DNA of 64,000 bases from assembly GCF_900070355.1 (NCBI RefSeq), contig NZ_LN849456.1, forward strand, positions 186,001 to 250,000, in the 5' to 3' direction. Under the pieces are notes generated by a model that searched no databases, was not told the DNA's origin, and saw only the letters and a list, made by a program, of their open reading frames with translations. This document shows, piece after piece, positions 4 to 12,591 of this stretch. Both the position numbers and the translations under genes were made by a program. Origin of the DNA: Devriesea agamarum. GTDB taxonomy: Bacteria; Actinomycetota; Actinomycetes; Actinomycetales; Dermabacteraceae. Numbering within the stretch: the stretch's first letter is position 1; every line of letters starts with the position of its first letter.

Positions 4-702
4 ATGATGCGTGCGGACATGGATAAACGGCCTTTCGATGTTGCCCGGATGTTTGACCAGGTGGCATCCCGATACGACCTCTTGAACGACGTTTTAGCTG
101 TCGGGCAAGTCAGGAGATGGCGTCGGAGCATGGTGCAAGCATTGGCTTTGCCTGCTGGCGCCCGGGTGTTGGATCTGGCGGCTGGGACGGGAACCTCAAC
201 GGCTGCTCTGCGTGCTGCTGGGTTTGACGCGGTGGCTGCAGATTTTTCTCCCGGAATGATTAAAGAGGGGCGGCGTCGCAACCCCGGCATCGAATTTGTT
301 CAGGCCGACGCCACGGCTCTCCCGTTCGAGGATGCGAGTTTTGATGCGGTCACCATCAGTTTTGGCTTGCGCAATGTGGTGCGTCCGCGCGCGGCCCTCG
401 CGGAGATGGCCCGGGTAGTCCGCCCCGGAGGTCCAGTGCTGATCTGTGAATTCTCAACTCCGACCTGGCGACCGTGGCGCACTGTCTATTTCGAGTACCT
501 GGTTCGGGCCATGCCTAAGGTGGCCCGCTTGGTTTCGTCGAATCCGGCTGCTTACGACTACTTGGCAGAGTCGATCATGTCGTGGCCAAATCAAGCCGAA
601 CTGCGGGAGTGGATGCTTGAGGCTGGGTTGCAGCGGTGCCAATACCGGAACTTGAGCGGCGGCATTGTTGCCCTTCACCGGGGCTATGTAGGGGTTATGT
701 AG
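4..702 (+). CDS. menG: Demethylmenaquinone methyltransferase (MenG/UbiE)
   Basis: SAM-dependent C-methyltransferase that converts demethylmenaquinol to menaquinol, the respiratory quinone of actinobacteria. The 232-residue protein has the usual family length. Class I SAM motif [10 protein letters not shown] is at about 55-64, the acidic [11 protein letters not shown] segment at 100-110 and the UbiE-type GLRNV stretch at 121-125. The N-terminus ([19 protein letters not shown]) matches the family start, so ATG at 4 or 7 is credible. Bases 1-3 are all that is seen upstream, so promoter and upstream neighbour are outside the window. An rRNA operon follows after about 520 bp. The family is clear; menaquinone rather than ubiquinone is inferred from the actinobacterial context. 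Confidence 0.95.
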
Positions 703-1226: not shown

Positions 1227-6170
<4,944 letters not shown>

Positions 6171-6282
6171 TTTTCTTGGTGTTGTGTGGTTGTTGTGTGT
6201 TCGCGTCTGCTGTGTGGTTCTTGGATTGCACTTCCTGGTTGCTGGCCTGTGGGTTGGTGGTGGGGTGTGGTTGTGTATAGTG

Positions 6283-6402
6283 TTACGGCGGTCATAGCGT
6301 TGGGGAAACGCCCGGTTCCATTCCGAACCCGGTAGCTAAGCCTGATTGCGCCGATGGTACTGCACTCGGGAGGGTGTGGGAGAGTAGGTAGCCGCCGGAC
6401 TT
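6283..6402 (+). rRNA. rrf: 5S ribosomal RNA
   Basis: About 120 nt starting TTACGGCGGTCATAGCG and closing with GCCGCCGGAC, so the two ends form the terminal helix. The internal CATTCCGAACCCGG loop B/C segment and AAGCC are typical. It follows 23S by 112 bp, completing the order 16S-23S-5S. End positions are approximate. Confidence 0.95.
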
Positions 6403-6559
6403 CTTTTTTGGGGAGGGGTGTGGGGTGTGGGATCCTGGAGAGGGTTTTGTGCTTCATGCTCCTTTTCTTTTTGTGTGGGGTGTGGGGGTGGAGACACCCT
6501 CACACACCGGCCTAAAAGCCACAAGTGTGCTGTTTCAACGCGAGCTCTCTGGTAATCGA

Positions 6560-6590
6560 CCGCATCTCATGATCTGAGGTGCGGTTTTTT
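6560..6590 (+). terminator. Rho-independent terminator of the rrn operon
   Basis: A 10-bp stem, CCGCATCTCA (6560-6569) with TGAGGTGCGG (6575-6584), has a TGATC loop and is followed directly by six T (6585-6590). One G-T wobble is the only imperfection. A second, G-rich hairpin without a T tract lies just before it (6479-6490 with 6495-6508) and may help processing. Confidence 0.85.
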
Positions 6591-7272
6591 ATTGCTTTAC
6601 ATCGAATAGGGGTGGGCGCTGTCGCTCCAGTAGCCCTATTTCCTGCAGACACAATACGCACGGCGCAAAGCTAGATGTGAATATCTGAAAATAGGTCTAA
6701 ATAGCCGCAGAGCAACGATCTCTACACGGTTAGGCCAATTACACCTTCACATCAATCCTGCGTGATCGACCTCGCTCGGACTATACGTCGTCCTCCAGTT
6801 TTCCCGTAATCGCACAGTACGTTCTCTTCGGTCTCGATAGTGCGTCCACTTGGGTCGCGATAGTGCATCCAGGTCAGCCTCGATTGAGCCCAGGCTCCGG
6901 TGGTTCGGTACCGCGTCAAACAATGGCACCCAGCACCCAGCACCCAGCACCCAGCACCCAGTACCCAGCACCCAGGACTCAGGACATAGCGCACGGCATA
7001 TAGCGATCTGCCGCACGTCGACGCACAGGCGTCAGATCGCGATGCGCAGGTAGCCGCGCTCGACTCGATCATCCATCTCTATTCGCGCTCGGTTCCCTAG
7101 GTGTTGCCTAGAACACCCCAAAGATGTCCTCGCGTGGCCCACATCGCGCCCTCAAGGTGAATGCTGTCACCAAACCGCCGCGAAGGTGCTAGGGGCATCC
7201 CCACATGGCTTAGCGTTGAACTAAAGACTCGAATAGCGAAAAGGTTGGCCAGTAGGCCACGGGGGAGGACAC
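6591..7272. other. Non-coding stretch between rrn and the TPR-protein operon
   Basis: About 680 bp with no convincing gene on either strand. Small open frames on both strands run through a heptamer repeat and have no family resemblance. It contains the CACCCAG array at 6927-6982, a 14-bp imperfect direct repeat (CGATAGTGCGTCCA near 6835 and CGATAGTGCATCCA near 6858), and the ribosome binding site of the next gene at 7261-7268. I see no clear promoter, although one must lie here. Confidence 0.6.
6927..6982. repeat. Heptamer tandem repeat (CACCCAG)n
   Basis: Eight head-to-tail 7-bp units: five exact CACCCAG copies (6927-6961), TACCCAG, another exact copy (6969-6975) and a degenerate GACTCAG. 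The period is strict. On the other strand this reads CTGGGTG repeats. It lies outside any supported gene and could vary in copy number by slippage. Confidence 0.95.
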
Positions 7273-10200
7273 GTGACGTACGACCACGACGCAGCCGCGT
7301 CGAAAGGCCAAGGCGACCTTGGGTCGAGACACCCTCAACGATCAGGAAAACCCTATCGGAATAACGACCGCGACGGTTGGCGAGCGGGTGATCAAAAACG
7401 CGGCGGACGTGATGACTACCGCGGTCGTAAAGGATCGTTTGCGGGTGAAGAATCAAAGGAGCGCCGCACCTGGTCCAGCCGTGATGAACGAGGCCAAGGC
7501 AATCGGGACCGTCGATATTCCGACCCTGGAAACAGGAATGAAGGGCGTTCATCGGATCGAAATGATCGCGGTTATGGCCGGGACCAGCGGGGATCATATC
7601 GCGGAGATTCCTCATACGACCGCCGCAGTGGTTCGTACGACCGTCGAGGACGTTCGGGGGAGCGGGGAACCCAGCACAATAACCGGTTCGGGAATTCCAG
7701 GTATGGGGCAGATGATGGCCCCAAAAACGAATCCCGTAACCACAACTGGGCCAATGATCGCCGAGACTCATCATCGCGTTCAGACTCTAGCTATCGTCGC
7801 GATGACCGTCGCTACTCGGGCGAGAAACGAGACTTTGAACAGTCTCGCGGCGATCGGAACCAAAATACGTACCGGAATGATCGCGGTGAGCGCACAGAAC
7901 GGTATGGACGTTCTGAACGAACCCGCGGTGAGGGGCATGGTTTCGCACGGGGTTGGAATCATGACTCGTCGCAGAGCCCCCGATCTCATCGTGATGTGAA
8001 TAACGAACGAGGGGATCGACGAGGCTCCTGGCGAGACTCGGATCGACAGAACGGTCGTTCTTTCCGTGCCGGGAAAACTCGCGACTTCGCTAAAGACTCC
8101 CGAAGTGGGGAATATCGAGACCGCCAATGGGGTCGTGATGACTCGCGCCCACAGAATCGATACGGCAGCAAAAACGACCGTCGTTTTAGCGGCGAAGATC
8201 GTCCGCGGTATGGCGGACGTGAATGGGATCGCCCGTACGGTGATCGGCGCGAGCGGTCCGGCTACGGTGATCGTGGCCGCCAGGAGGATCGCTCAAAGCG
8301 ACAAGATCGTGATAATCGGTATGGCCAGCGTTCTGATGATGACCGGTCGCGAGGAGGATTCCGTGACCGTGAGACAGGGCGCACCTGGACTAAAGGCTCC
8401 CAGCAGAACTCTCCCGGACCTCGTTCCTTTGATGCCCGTCAAACCCGTCCAGATGGGGCCCGGGACTGGGAAAAGCGGTCTCGTGATGATCGGGCCGCAA
8501 GGCGCGACAACCGGACGGCAACTCCGGACCGAGCAGCGCATCAAGATCACGATAAAGCGCCGTACGAGAATGATCGGTTTTCGTCGAAAGATCAGCGTTT
8601 CTCTGAGCGGCCTAATTCAGCTAGCAACTCCGACGAGGCGTATACCTCTGAAGAGTCACCTCAGGGAGCCGATAAGCCGGTTCAACGGGTCGATCAACCC
8701 GATAAAACCGCGCAGAATGAGAGCGCTGTCACCTCACCCTCGCAAAATGACGGGGCCACAAGTAGTTCCGAGGCATCCTCACCGGATGACACCCGACATG
8801 GCGATGACCGCGATGTGAAGCACTCTCAGGACGATCAGGAATCAAAATCTCGCGAGTTTAGACATGACTCACGAGAGCGCTGGTCGGATCGCTCGCGTGG
8901 AACGGCTCATCTGTCTCGAAGGCCTGATCACTCGCATGGATCTGATGGCGTCCGCGGATCGGATCGTCCATCTCGAGGGTCGGATTATTCGCATGACTCG
9001 GATCGCTCGCGTGGTTCAGGTTATTCGCGCGGTTCGGACCGCACCCAGAGATCGGACCGTCCCTGGGGATCGGGCCGCTCGCATGGCAGAGACGACCAGG
9101 ACGGTCGTGATCGGTACCGAGATCGAAGCGAAGATAACCGTCGAGGCCGATTCCGCGATGACTCCTCGCAGAGCAGGCCGGGTCAGCGACGTCGGATGGC
9201 ACGTCCGGATGAACCACTTGTTGATGAGGCGATTACCGGTCGGGAGCTCGACGGTGTTATCCGCGGCGAGCTGAGGGCATTGAGCAAAGAAACCTCGGAA
9301 CGGGTTAGTCGGCACCTGGTGGCGACCTCCATGTACCTTGCCGACGGCAAATTCGAGGAGGCTTTCCAGCATTCACAGTTTGCGACCCGTCTGGCGGGGC
9401 GCGTGGGCGCTGTGCGAGAAATGCATGGCATTGTCTGCTATCAACTGGGTGAATACAGCGCTGCGCTGAAAGAACTGCGCACCGCGGTTCGGATCACCGG
9501 ACGGCATGACCTCACCCCTATGATCGCGGACTGCGAGCGAGGTTTGGGGCGACCCGAACGCGCTTTAGACGTTGCGGCATCTGACGGCGCGGAAAAGCTG
9601 GATGCGGATGCCACGATCGAGCTGCTTGTCGTCGTGGCGGGAGCATATGCGGACATGGGTGACCTCGAAACAGCGTTGAAAACGCTTGAGGTGCCCGCGC
9701 TGCGCCATAAAGTCGATGGACAGTGGAAAGTGCGACTTTGGGTTGCCTACGCGAAATTATTGAAGGTCGCAGGTCGGCACGATGAAGCGCACAAATGGCT
9801 CACCCTCGCGGCTGATGCGGACACCGATGGGCTGACCGATGCCGCCGTCCAACTAGGCCGCCCTGCCCCCGAAATTCCGGATGTTCCGTGGCTGGACGAC
9901 GAGCGGATATCGGTCCTCGACGTCTACGAGGATGAACCGACGGAGGATGACTGCGCGGAAGACGAGGGTTTGGAGGACACCTCTTCCCACGCTGAAGCCT
10001 CGGAGGTCGACGAAACCCCAGAAGACTCGGCATCGGAAGACGAGCCTTCGCAGGTTGAGGCCACGGATAAGGCATCAGAAGATGTGTCTTTAGACGGTGA
10101 GACGCTGGAAGAAGAGGACATCACCGGACGCTCTTTGTCGGACGAGGATATGTCGGATGCCGAAATCTGTGACAAAGAGAACGCCTCAGACGGCGAGGTG

Positions 10201-10653
10201 ACGGACGCCCATACCCCCGACTACGTCGAAGCTGAAGAAAACGCTTCCGCTGATGAACCTCATCATCTCGATGAGGACGGATGCGGAGAGGCCGAGAAGG
10301 ACTTGTCGGATCAAGATGCGCCCGAAGCCGAAGCCGAAGCCGAAGCCAAAGTTGAGGCTGACGCCGAGGTCGAAGCTGCTGCTGAAGCCAAGGCCGAGGT
10401 ACATGCTGCCGTCGCCCGCGACGAGGTTGCCCCCGACGATATCTCTGAAGCCGCCGCTACAAAGTCCCAGGATGATGCGGCGGGTAGCTCAGATCACCAT
10501 GACATCATGAACGCGGACAACGGCCCTTCAGACGGTGATCACACGACCTCGCTACACAATCGTCACGACGTAGCCGATGGTCTGGAAGCAGCCCAGGAGC
10601 CCCCTAGCCCCGGTCCTCAGGCCGTGCAACAGCGCAAGGAGATGGATGCATGA
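7273..10653 (+). CDS. Giant disordered TPR-like protein, Arg/Asp/Ser/Gly-rich
   Basis: Function unknown. The 1126-residue protein has three parts. Residues 1 to about 645 are low complexity, dominated by R, D, S, G, Y, N and Q with many RGS, YDRR and DRSRGS-type motifs; about 425-525 is richer in S/E/D/P/Q. Residues 650-875 form the only folded part, all-helical with TPR-like pairs (motifs ITGRELDGVIRGELRAL, ADCERGLGRPERALDVA). Residues 876-1126 are strongly acidic and end in A/E repeats (about 1017-1046). From memory, Micrococcales carry a shorter homologue (RD-rich N-terminus plus this helical domain) upstream of HAD phosphatase and tlyA. The start is GTG with a strong GGGGGAGG site at 7261-7268. 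It overlaps the next gene by ATGA. Long open frames in other frames here follow from the biased codon pattern. RNA or ribosome association is my inference. Confidence 0.85.
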   Translation: MTYDHDAAASKGQGDLGSRHPQRSGKPYRNNDRDGWRAGDQKRGGRDDYRGRKGSFAGEESKERRTWSSRDERGQGNRDRRYSDPGNRNEGRSSDRNDRGYGRDQRGSYRGDSSYDRRSGSYDRRGRSGERGTQHNNRFGNSRYGADDGPKNESRNHNWANDRRDSSSRSDSSYRRDDRRYSGEKRDFEQSRGDRNQNTYRNDRGERTERYGRSERTRGEGHGFARGWNHDSSQSPRSHRDVNNERGDRRGSWRDSDRQNGRSFRAGKTRDFAKDSRSGEYRDRQWGRDDSRPQNRYGSKNDRRFSGEDRPRYGGREWDRPYGDRRERSGYGDRGRQEDRSKRQDRDNRYGQRSDDDRSRGGFRDRETGRTWTKGSQQNSPGPRSFDARQTRPDGARDWEKRSRDDRAARRDNRTATPDRAAHQDHDKAPYENDRFSSKDQRFSERPNSASNSDEAYTSEESPQGADKPVQRVDQPDKTAQNESAVTSPSQNDGATSSSEASSPDDTRHGDDRDVKHSQDDQESKSREFRHDSRERWSDRSRGTAHLSRRPDHSHGSDGVRGSDRPSRGSDYSHDSDRSRGSGYSRGSDRTQRSDRPWGSGRSHGRDDQDGRDRYRDRSEDNRRGRFRDDSSQSRPGQRRRMARPDEPLVDEAITGRELDGVIRGELRALSKETSERVSRHLVATSMYLADGKFEEAFQHSQFATRLAGRVGAVREMHGIVCYQLGEYSAALKELRTAVRITGRHDLTPMIADCERGLGRPERALDVAASDGAEKLDADATIELLVVVAGAYADMGDLETALKTLEVPALRHKVDGQWKVRLWVAYAKLLKVAGRHDEAHKWLTLAADADTDGLTDAAVQLGRPAPEIPDVPWLDDERISVLDVYEDEPTEDDCAEDEGLEDTSSHAEASEVDETPEDSASEDEPSQVEATDKASEDVSLDGETLEEEDITGRSLSDEDMSDAEICDKENASDGEVTDAHTPDYVEAEENASADEPHHLDEDGCGEAEKDLSDQDAPEAEAEAEAKVEADAEVEAAAEAKAEVHAAVARDEVAPDDISEAAATKSQDDAAGSSDHHDIMNADNGPSDGDHTTSLHNRHDVADGLEAAQEPPSPGPQAVQQRKEMDA

Positions 10654-11705
10654 AAGCTCAGTCGCTCCCGATCCTTACGGAATACGACGCCCTGCTCCTG
10701 GACCTCGACGGATGCGTGATGCATGGATCGCGGCCCATCGACGGCGCAGCGAGCGGAGTTGCTAAAGCCCGAGAGGCTGGCCGACACATTGCATTCGTCA
10801 CAAACAATGCCTCTCGCACCCCTGATCAGGTAATCGCCCACCTAGAAACGGTTGGCGTGATCGGTACCCCTGATGAAGTGACCTCCTCGCCACAGGTTGC
10901 CGTTCACATTTTGCGTGAACAGCACGGCGACGGGGCGCGAGTGCTGGTGATCGGTGGTGACTCGCTCGCTAGCGAACTGTCCGCTGCCGGACTGGTTCCC
11001 GTGCGCAGTGCCGATGAGCAGCCGGTCGCGGTAGTGCAAGGCTGGTCCGCCGACGTCGATTGGGCGCAGCTTGCCGAAGGTGCCTACGCGATTGGGGCCG
11101 GAGCGTCCTATGTCGCTACCAACACCGACCTCACTTTGCCAACCGAACGGGGAATGGCGCCCGGTAATGGTTCCCTGGTGGCTGCGCTGCGAGCAGCCAC
11201 CGGTAAAGATCCGATTGTCGCGGGCAAGCCGCAACCTGAGATTTTCCGGGTGGCGGCCTCACGATGCGGCGCCCGTTCACCGCTGATCGTCGGGGACCGA
11301 CTCGACACCGATATTGAGGGTGGCCAGCGGGCAGACATGGATTCTGCCCTAACGCTCACCGGGGTATCGACCATTCTCGACGCCTTATATGCCCTGCCTA
11401 TTCAACGGCCTACCCACCTCATCCAAACCCTCGATGAGCTGCATACCGCGATTCCGCGCCCGGTGGTCACGGAGAATAGGGCGGTGTGCGGAGCCGCCTC
11501 AGCACTCCTCGTCGATGAGCACACCATTGAACTCAGTGGGGCCGATTTTTACCCAGCGCAGGGATCAGCTTCTGAACCGGTTCCGGGTATGTCAACTGCG
11601 CGTGCCACCCTCGCCTTAATTGCCAGCCAGTTCCCCCACCGTGCGTTTGTCGGTCGGCTCGTGGATGCCCAGGGGCGCGAGGTGACGGCTTTTCACGGAA
11701 ACTAG
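10650..11705 (+). CDS. HAD-IIA (NagD-like) phosphatase
   Basis: Haloacid dehalogenase superfamily hydrolase, subfamily IIA, probably cytoplasmic and acting on small phosphorylated metabolites (pNPPase/NagD type); the substrate cannot be read from sequence. Motif I is DLDG with D18 as predicted nucleophile and D20 as acid/base, motif II is VTNNAS (T51), and the late acidic motif VGDRLDTDIEGG holds the Mg-binding aspartates. The 351-residue protein carries about 90 residues after the HAD fold (from about 260), ending LVDAQGREVTAF, which is longer than NagD. The start overlaps the stop of the TPR gene (ATGA), so the two are translationally coupled. tlyA follows. Confidence 0.9.
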   Translation: MKAQSLPILTEYDALLLDLDGCVMHGSRPIDGAASGVAKAREAGRHIAFVTNNASRTPDQVIAHLETVGVIGTPDEVTSSPQVAVHILREQHGDGARVLVIGGDSLASELSAAGLVPVRSADEQPVAVVQGWSADVDWAQLAEGAYAIGAGASYVATNTDLTLPTERGMAPGNGSLVAALRAATGKDPIVAGKPQPEIFRVAASRCGARSPLIVGDRLDTDIEGGQRADMDSALTLTGVSTILDALYALPIQRPTHLIQTLDELHTAIPRPVVTENRAVCGAASALLVDEHTIELSGADFYPAQGSASEPVPGMSTARATLALIASQFPHRAFVGRLVDAQGREVTAFHGN

Positions 11706-11736
11706 GTGATCTTGACACCATGAGGTGGGATCGGGC

Positions 11737-12591
11737 ATGAGACTAGATAAAGCCCTCGCGGAGCAGGGCTATGCGCGGTCGCGCAGCCATGCCCAGCAGA
11801 TCCTTGCCGAAGGGCGGGTGCGGGTGGATGGAGCCGTCATCACTCGCGCAAGCACGAAGGTGGCACCTGGATCCGTGCTAGACGTGGTCGATGTTCCGGA
11901 CGGAATTGAGTACGCCTCTCGCGGCGCGCACAAGCTTCTTGGAGCACTCGAGCTGTTTCACGTCGATCCGTCGGGCCGCGTGTGCGCCGATGCTGGAGCC
12001 TCCACCGGAGGTTTCACTGATGTTCTCCTGCGGCGTGGAGCCCGGCGTATTCATGCTATCGACATAGGACACGATCAGCTCGATCCTAGGGTGCGCGCCG
12101 ATACTCGGGTCGTGGTGCACGACGGTATCAATATCCGGGGCCTTCACCAGGATTCGCTCGGAGAATTGGTGTCACTGGTGGTCGCCGACCTATCTTTCAT
12201 CTCATTGACGCTAGTACTTAAGCCGTTGACAAATCTCTGCGCACCCGGTGCAGATCTCCTCTTGATGGTCAAACCGCAATTTGAAGTGGGGCGGGAAAGC
12301 ATCGGTCGCACCGGTGTCGTCACAGATCCGCAACGGCAATGCGAAGCAGTCACCGCAGTGGTGCATGCAGCAGAGAGCGTTGGACTGCACATGCACGGCA
12401 TCGGAAGCAGCCCGCTTCCCGGGCAGGACGGGAACCGAGAGTTCTTTCTTCACCTCATCGAGCCCACTATGCACAGTGAAGCGGGTTACCCTCGAATGTC
12501 GGCTCGGTATGACATGATCACCGATGTGGTCTTCGGTCGGAGACCGGTTGACATCCTGGACGACGGGTTGAGAAGGGGAGAAGTGCGGTGA
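11737..12591 (+). CDS. tlyA: TlyA 2'-O-ribose rRNA methyltransferase
   Basis: SAM-dependent methyltransferase that modifies the ribose of a cytidine in helix 69 of 23S rRNA (C1920) and, in type II enzymes, also C1409 of 16S rRNA; loss gives capreomycin resistance in mycobacteria. An S4 RNA-binding domain (1-55) is followed by SRGAHKL (61-67) and the FtsJ-like SAM motif DAGASTGGFTD (85-95), then VADLSFISL and VKPQFEVG. I start at ATG 11737, which begins MRLDKALAEQGY like the family and has AGGTGGGA six bases upstream; a GTG at 11725 is in frame but adds no conserved residues. It overlaps nadK by GTGA. The local 16S copy has A at 1409, so only the 23S site is available on this operon. Confidence 0.95.
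   Translation: MRLDKALAEQGYARSRSHAQQILAEGRVRVDGAVITRASTKVAPGSVLDVVDVPDGIEYASRGAHKLLGALELFHVDPSGRVCADAGASTGGFTDVLLRRGARRIHAIDIGHDQLDPRVRADTRVVVHDGINIRGLHQDSLGELVSLVVADLSFISLTLVLKPLTNLCAPGADLLLMVKPQFEVGRESIGRTGVVTDPQRQCEAVTAVVHAAESVGLHMHGIGSSPLPGQDGNREFFLHLIEPTMHSEAGYPRMSARYDMITDVVFGRRPVDILDDGLRRGEVR

Follow-up and report, generated by a model that had tools for sequence, protein, structure and literature searches.

A long form of an actinomycete TPR protein encoded beside an rRNA operon in Devriesea agamarum

The gene directly behind an rRNA operon of Devriesea agamarum encodes a long protein with an arginine-rich arm, a helical core and an acidic tail, and the question is what this protein does and whether its place in the genome is a clue to its role. 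The window is the whole stretch of 64,000 nucleotides that was analyzed (contig NZ_LN849456.1, positions 186,001 to 250,000). Its relevant features, in window coordinates, are the following.

1227..6400, + strand: 16S-23S-5S rRNA operon (rrn), directly upstream of the TPR gene; its 5S gene is one of two in the genome
6558..6586, + strand: terminator-like hairpin with a T run, between the 5S rRNA and the TPR gene
7273..10653, + strand: whole TPR gene, 1126 aa with a GTG start, encoding disordered arm, TPR core and acidic tail
7273..9207, + strand: Arg/Asp/Ser/Gly-rich disordered arm, residues 1-645 (composition, charge-hydropathy; composition kept in relatives)
9214..9900, + strand: conserved TPR core (residues 648-876) that begins with the ITGREL motif (Pfam, AlphaFold2, class-wide search)
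9907..10650, + strand: acidic A/D/E-rich disordered tail, residues 879-1126, net charge -72 (composition, charge-hydropathy)
10650..11705, + strand: HAD-IIA hydrolase, whose start overlaps the TPR stop (ATGA)
11725..12591, + strand: TlyA-type rRNA methyltransferase, named from gene order as a conserved neighbor

The best explanation of the gene is that it encodes a core protein of actinomycetes in its long Dermabacteraceae form. For its function, the preferred reading, to which a probability of roughly 45% is assigned, is that of an RNA-associated TPR adaptor whose arm would act, by analogy, as the RNA-binding insert does in actinobacterial Rho.

Architecture of the window protein

The TPR gene is preceded by a strong ribosome-binding site (GGGGGAGGA, 7261-7269) that ends 3 nt ahead of the GTG start. 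An earlier reading of the DNA, made from the sequence alone, had placed in this open reading frame a low-complexity arm of about 645 residues, a TPR core at 650-875 and an acidic tail of about 250 residues. All of these were found, and the three-part design is confirmed, with the N- and C-terminal regions falling on the disordered side of the charge-hydropathy plot and the core on the folded side. A wrong-frame artefact was ruled out by the ribosome-binding site, the retention of the arm across the family and the many synonymous Arg and Ser codons. The sequence-only reading had also called the protein charge-segregated, which holds at the scale of whole domains (delta50 z 21 for the whole chain at the 50-residue scale) but at that scale only, as the charges within the arm are better mixed than in shuffled sequences (delta5 z -4.2). 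Its suggestion that the tail neutralizes the arm is borne out in the sign of the charge but not in the amount: the 248-residue tail over-compensates the arm (-72 against +33), and the whole protein has a net charge of -51. The tail contains a tandem CCGAAG-type DNA repeat at 10322-10376. A histone-deacetylase Pfam match on the tail (E 0.038) was rejected as a sub-cut-off composition artefact.

The full-length protein stays below the Pfam TPR cut-off, but the core scanned alone exceeds it for TPR_2, TPR_12, TPR_14 and TPR_19. An AlphaFold2 model of the core built from four sequences (pLDDT 80.9, pTM 0.74) is an all-helical repeat, and residues ~648-876 are predicted with confidence to form a TPR solenoid of tandem two-helix repeats. 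In a comparison of the core with PDB structures the best match is TTC0263 (VIA Z 16.8), with dozens of unrelated TPR proteins within 2 units, and a PDB profile search returned only designed or generic TPRs, including a match to the PknG TPR at E 0.064. Because so many unrelated TPR proteins score alike, the fold of the core transfers no function. The core has the highly conserved motifs ITGREL, RHLVAA, ADCERGLGRPE and VRLWVAYA, and carries the ITGREL / RHLVAA / CERGLGRPE / VRLWVAYA signature of the Rv1691-type family; residue conservation of this strength would be expected for a core with a fixed partner. Pfam, NCBIfam and PADLOC hold no description of the family beyond TPR. It is so far known only as an unnamed TPR protein, of which the window protein is a long variant with an ordinary fold. 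No PADLOC model matched the window protein, which was not assigned to anti-phage defence.

The arm (residues 1-645) consists of 21% R, 3% K, 14% D, 14% S, 11% G and 4% Y, with 5% ILVMFW in total, and so has the Arg-rich, low-hydrophobicity character of the N-terminal arms in the actinomycete arm-TPR (Rv1691-type) family. Its 136 Arg and 19 Lys leave it mildly basic (net +33, NCPR +0.05), apart from residues 441-520, which are poor in Arg and slightly acidic, and it includes 24 Tyr. RGG occurs at the frequency expected from the arm's composition (2 observed, 1.7 expected), so that the arm lacks the motif enrichment of RGG-box proteins, while DR (33 versus 19 expected) and YG (8 versus 2.7 expected) are enriched. 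A search of the arm for tandem DNA repeats found none, which ruled out an origin by repeat expansion for the window protein; some relatives do have near-perfect repeats.

Arm statistics were collected from 110 distinct relatives whose 5' end is closed, although a few arm lengths, such as the 4 aa of L046, are artefacts of automatic start-codon choice. The median length is 214 aa (10th-90th percentile 87-435, longest 801), and all arms but one carry a net positive charge (109 of 110). Arms are Arg-rich both in genomes with ~50% GC (L114-L117, L131) and in high-GC ones; Arg lies far above Lys in nearly all of them and is preferred to Lys even at ~50% GC, and GC-driven arginine was ruled out by the lack of correlation between arm Arg content and GC (rho -0.01). 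Since this composition recurs in ~110 relatives independently of GC, it is more than chance. The arm evolves faster than the core, keeping its composition rather than its sequence: in one pair of close species the arm is 59% identical over an alignment with 161 gap columns and the core 93%, and large indels occur in the arm even between close species. All 64 tails of at least 20 aa are acidic. Across the 110 relatives the net charges of arm and tail anticorrelate (rho -0.64) and their lengths correlate (rho 0.59), both by statistics that ignore phylogeny.

Distribution and gene order

The sequence-only reading had named a shorter relative in Micrococcales and had proposed searching the core alone and comparing arm lengths. 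Shorter relatives do exist, but throughout the class rather than in that order alone: the core was found in 337 of 360 good genomes of the class (~94%), as a rule in single copy and in a few genomes in two. It is present in 55 of 56 good genomes of relatives, among which the closest named ones are Brachybacterium (63-64% core identity), and in 58 of 140 genomes of a phylum-wide draw. Among 36 family genomes, no open frame is longer than that of the window protein (1138, the next being 856). Other families hold open frames of 1331, 1269 and 1154, which makes long arms recurrent and not unique to the window protein. The locus had been put forward as undescribed biology, a description that fits it as an uncharacterized conserved protein and not as something peculiar to this genome. 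Relatives within the family have the arm, so that it is neither absent nor broken there, and on this point the earlier interpretation was not refuted. Further afield the arm is reduced to ~42 aa in genomes of the mycobacterial type, and only ~10-30 aa of it are left in the TPR-HAD fusions described below, so that the core function does not require it in every lineage. The core has no match in two near-complete genomes that rank among the smallest of the class (G178 and G208 of genus g107, 1.2 Mb); their neighbors with genomes of 1.3-1.5 Mb keep the core with an arm of 58-111 aa.

The adjacency to the rRNA operon, noted before for this locus, proved far wider than had been claimed. Among the 91 loci with enough sequence, 85 are preceded on their own strand by rRNA genes no more than 5 kb away, in most cases at most 0.5 kb from the TPR open frame, and the pattern is phylum-wide (18 of 19 family loci, 55 of 58 other class loci and 12 of 14 from other classes of the phylum). 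In the window, transcription of the operon probably stops at the hairpin 6558-6586, which lies in a region with 6 terminator-like sites against 0.8 expected in shuffles. With this hairpin between the 5S rRNA and the TPR gene, simple co-transcription is unlikely; it was not assumed in general either, as a strict scan placed terminators in 22 of 85 loci. The same intergenic region contains seven head-to-tail copies of GCACCCA (6926-6975).

Downstream, the TPR gene is the first of a HAD-tlyA-nadK-recN run, in agreement with its earlier description as the head of a tlyA-recN operon, and it has the position of the Rv1691-type family, immediately behind rrn and/or ahead of HAD-IIA/tlyA. As a control, the upstream side of the operon was considered, where tyrS was found in 28 of 40 non-family loci (one assignment being checked with Pfam). 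The ancestral order across the phylum is tyrS-rrn-TPR-HAD-tlyA-nadK-recN (for example L106, L114, L164 and L166). In Dermabacteraceae, a ubiE/menG-type methyltransferase gene (window 4-702) replaces tyrS upstream of the operon. In M. tuberculosis the order is reported as tyrS (Rv1689), lprJ (Rv1690), Rv1691, Rv1692, with no rRNA operon at that place (PMC2764107, PMC3072309), and in mycobacteria that have a second operon (rrnB), this operon lies downstream of tyrS (PMC10218544). In one genome (G157; L165, L168) there are two TPR gene copies, each directly downstream of an rRNA operon, and gene and operon seem to have been duplicated together.

The age of the tyrS-to-recN block weakens the rRNA adjacency as a functional argument. 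An alternative is that linkage and arm length are mostly historical, with an old syntenic block, a drifting, weakly constrained arm that serves solubility alone and a core that has an unrelated housekeeping job. The retention of tyrS on the far side of the operon fits such a history, as do arms of up to 801 aa with their large indels between close species. Several observations nonetheless make it a rather unlikely account: the preference for Arg and the sign of the charge are kept in essentially all lineages independently of GC, in several families the rrn-TPR pairing persists although the link to tyrS (Dermabacteraceae, L120-L122) or to tlyA is gone, and one genome has two linked copies.

Candidate functions

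The closest functional lead other than RNA comes from the HAD-IIA gene. It is directly next to the TPR gene in 21 of 21 family loci and in 21 of 50 other class loci (within 2.5 kb in 34 of the 50), and in the window the two reading frames overlap. Three genomes of a single genus carry the TPR core fused in frame to the HAD-IIA domain (L145 in G182, L218 in G273 and L219 in G192), with open frames of 579-660 aa in which the arm is almost lost. The neighboring M. tuberculosis protein Rv1692 is a glycerol-3-phosphate phosphatase (PMC12722247). Fusion and overlap are real evidence for a joint function, and a protein that mainly regulates or scaffolds the phosphatase, with the arm as an accessory tether, is the strongest rival or complement to an RNA role. 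As the main function it is possible yet on balance unlikely, since the HAD gene is not near in about one third of the non-family class loci, which still have the rRNA operon nearby, and since it leaves unexplained both the Arg-rich arm and a co-purification with RNA polymerase. Phosphatase partnership and RNA association could both hold.

This co-purification concerns M. smegmatis MSMEG_3754, which was recovered with cross-linked RNA polymerase beta and whose own pull-down gave no DNA (PMC7092591), a result that fits contact with RNA or protein rather than with DNA. The list that includes it holds 275 proteins (PMC7092591), which counts against the RNA reading. MSMEG_3754 also appears in the ClpC1 interactome (PMC10433963), and the literature on the function of Rv1691 offered nothing beyond such AP-MS lists.

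TlyA is an rRNA methyltransferase, and this neighbor, the rRNA operon linkage, the GC-independent Arg-rich arm that is nearly always net positive and the anticorrelation of arm and tail charge together point toward the RNA-associated adaptor. The composition of the arm, which had been said to resemble that of RNA-binding, phase-separating proteins, is in line with an RNA role: its cosine similarity is 0.956 to the insert of Rho from the same genome, 0.914 to a DEAD-box tail and 0.841 to RNase E, compared with 0.772 for a control tail from a non-RNA protein. Against the same reading stand the only mildly basic charge of the arm, its shortness in mycobacterial-type genomes and near absence in the fusions, the inclusion of the rRNA adjacency in an older tyrS-containing block and the terminator between operon and gene. 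In the proposed mechanism, the arm would hold RNA loosely and multivalently, much like the N-terminal Rho insert of actinobacteria, a protein partner would sit in the TPR groove, and the acidic tail would compete with RNA for the arm so that binding is tuned. The likeliest site of action would be nascent or immature RNA, such as rRNA, or RNA polymerase or ribosome complexes.

Two stronger versions of an RNA role involve assembly. In one, which we regard as improbable, the protein would be an rrn-encoded RNA condensate or ribosome-assembly scaffold, where the arm collects pre-rRNA as it is made, enzymes of processing or modification are brought in by the TPR core and the tail sets the threshold; this would make it a nucleolus-like factor in bacteria, with its gene next to the operon that it serves. 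In the other, more doubtful still, a condensate scaffold would gather around rRNA operons or pre-ribosomes, in line with the ribosome-linked or recombination-linked condensates suggested by the sequence-only reading. The Arg/Tyr/Gly/Ser composition of the arm, its multivalent mixed charges facing an oppositely charged tail and the rRNA linkage are in keeping with a condensate, but the good mixing of charges in the arm weakens complex coacervation, mycobacterial-type genomes make do with short arms, and where a gene lies does not decide where its product is active.

Overall, the interpretation made from sequence alone is partly supported. What emerges is a normally single-copy, uncharacterized protein that ~94% of the good actinomycete genomes encode and of which M. 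tuberculosis has an apparent relative, with three testable leads in its conserved Arg-rich arm, its old bond with the rRNA operon and its natural fusion to a phosphatase. Should the RNA role prove true, the family would represent an overlooked RNA or ribosome factor of the whole lineage.

Comparison with known systems

Generic TPR adaptors such as TTC0263, MamA, YrrB and LGN resemble the window protein in the fold of the core (VIA Z up to 16.8) at ~10-20% identity. The window protein is an apparent relative of Rv1691 and MSMEG_3754, which occupy the same place beside a HAD gene in the lprJ-recN operon (PMC3072309) and share the TPR annotation (PMC7092591), a likeness of position and annotation and not of aligned sequence. 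Mycobacterial-type loci have the same core with adjoining HAD and rRNA genes, but their arm of ~42 aa and lack of an acidic tail differ from the 645-aa arm and 248-aa tail seen here.

RNase E and the DEAD-box helicases of this genome likewise carry Arg-rich low-complexity arms on RNA proteins, although they have catalytic cores and RNase E reaches a cosine of only 0.84. The nearest parallel is Rho of the same genome (L207), whose disordered N-terminal insertion domain of ~220 residues has nearly the same amino-acid composition as the arm; the arm shares the disordered, Arg-rich character of this RNA-binding region. The corresponding inserts of Micrococcus and M. tuberculosis Rho are disordered and raise RNA affinity (PMC8828861). 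The likeness is one of composition and not of homology, with the insert of Rho placed on an ATPase and the arm of the window protein on a TPR solenoid.
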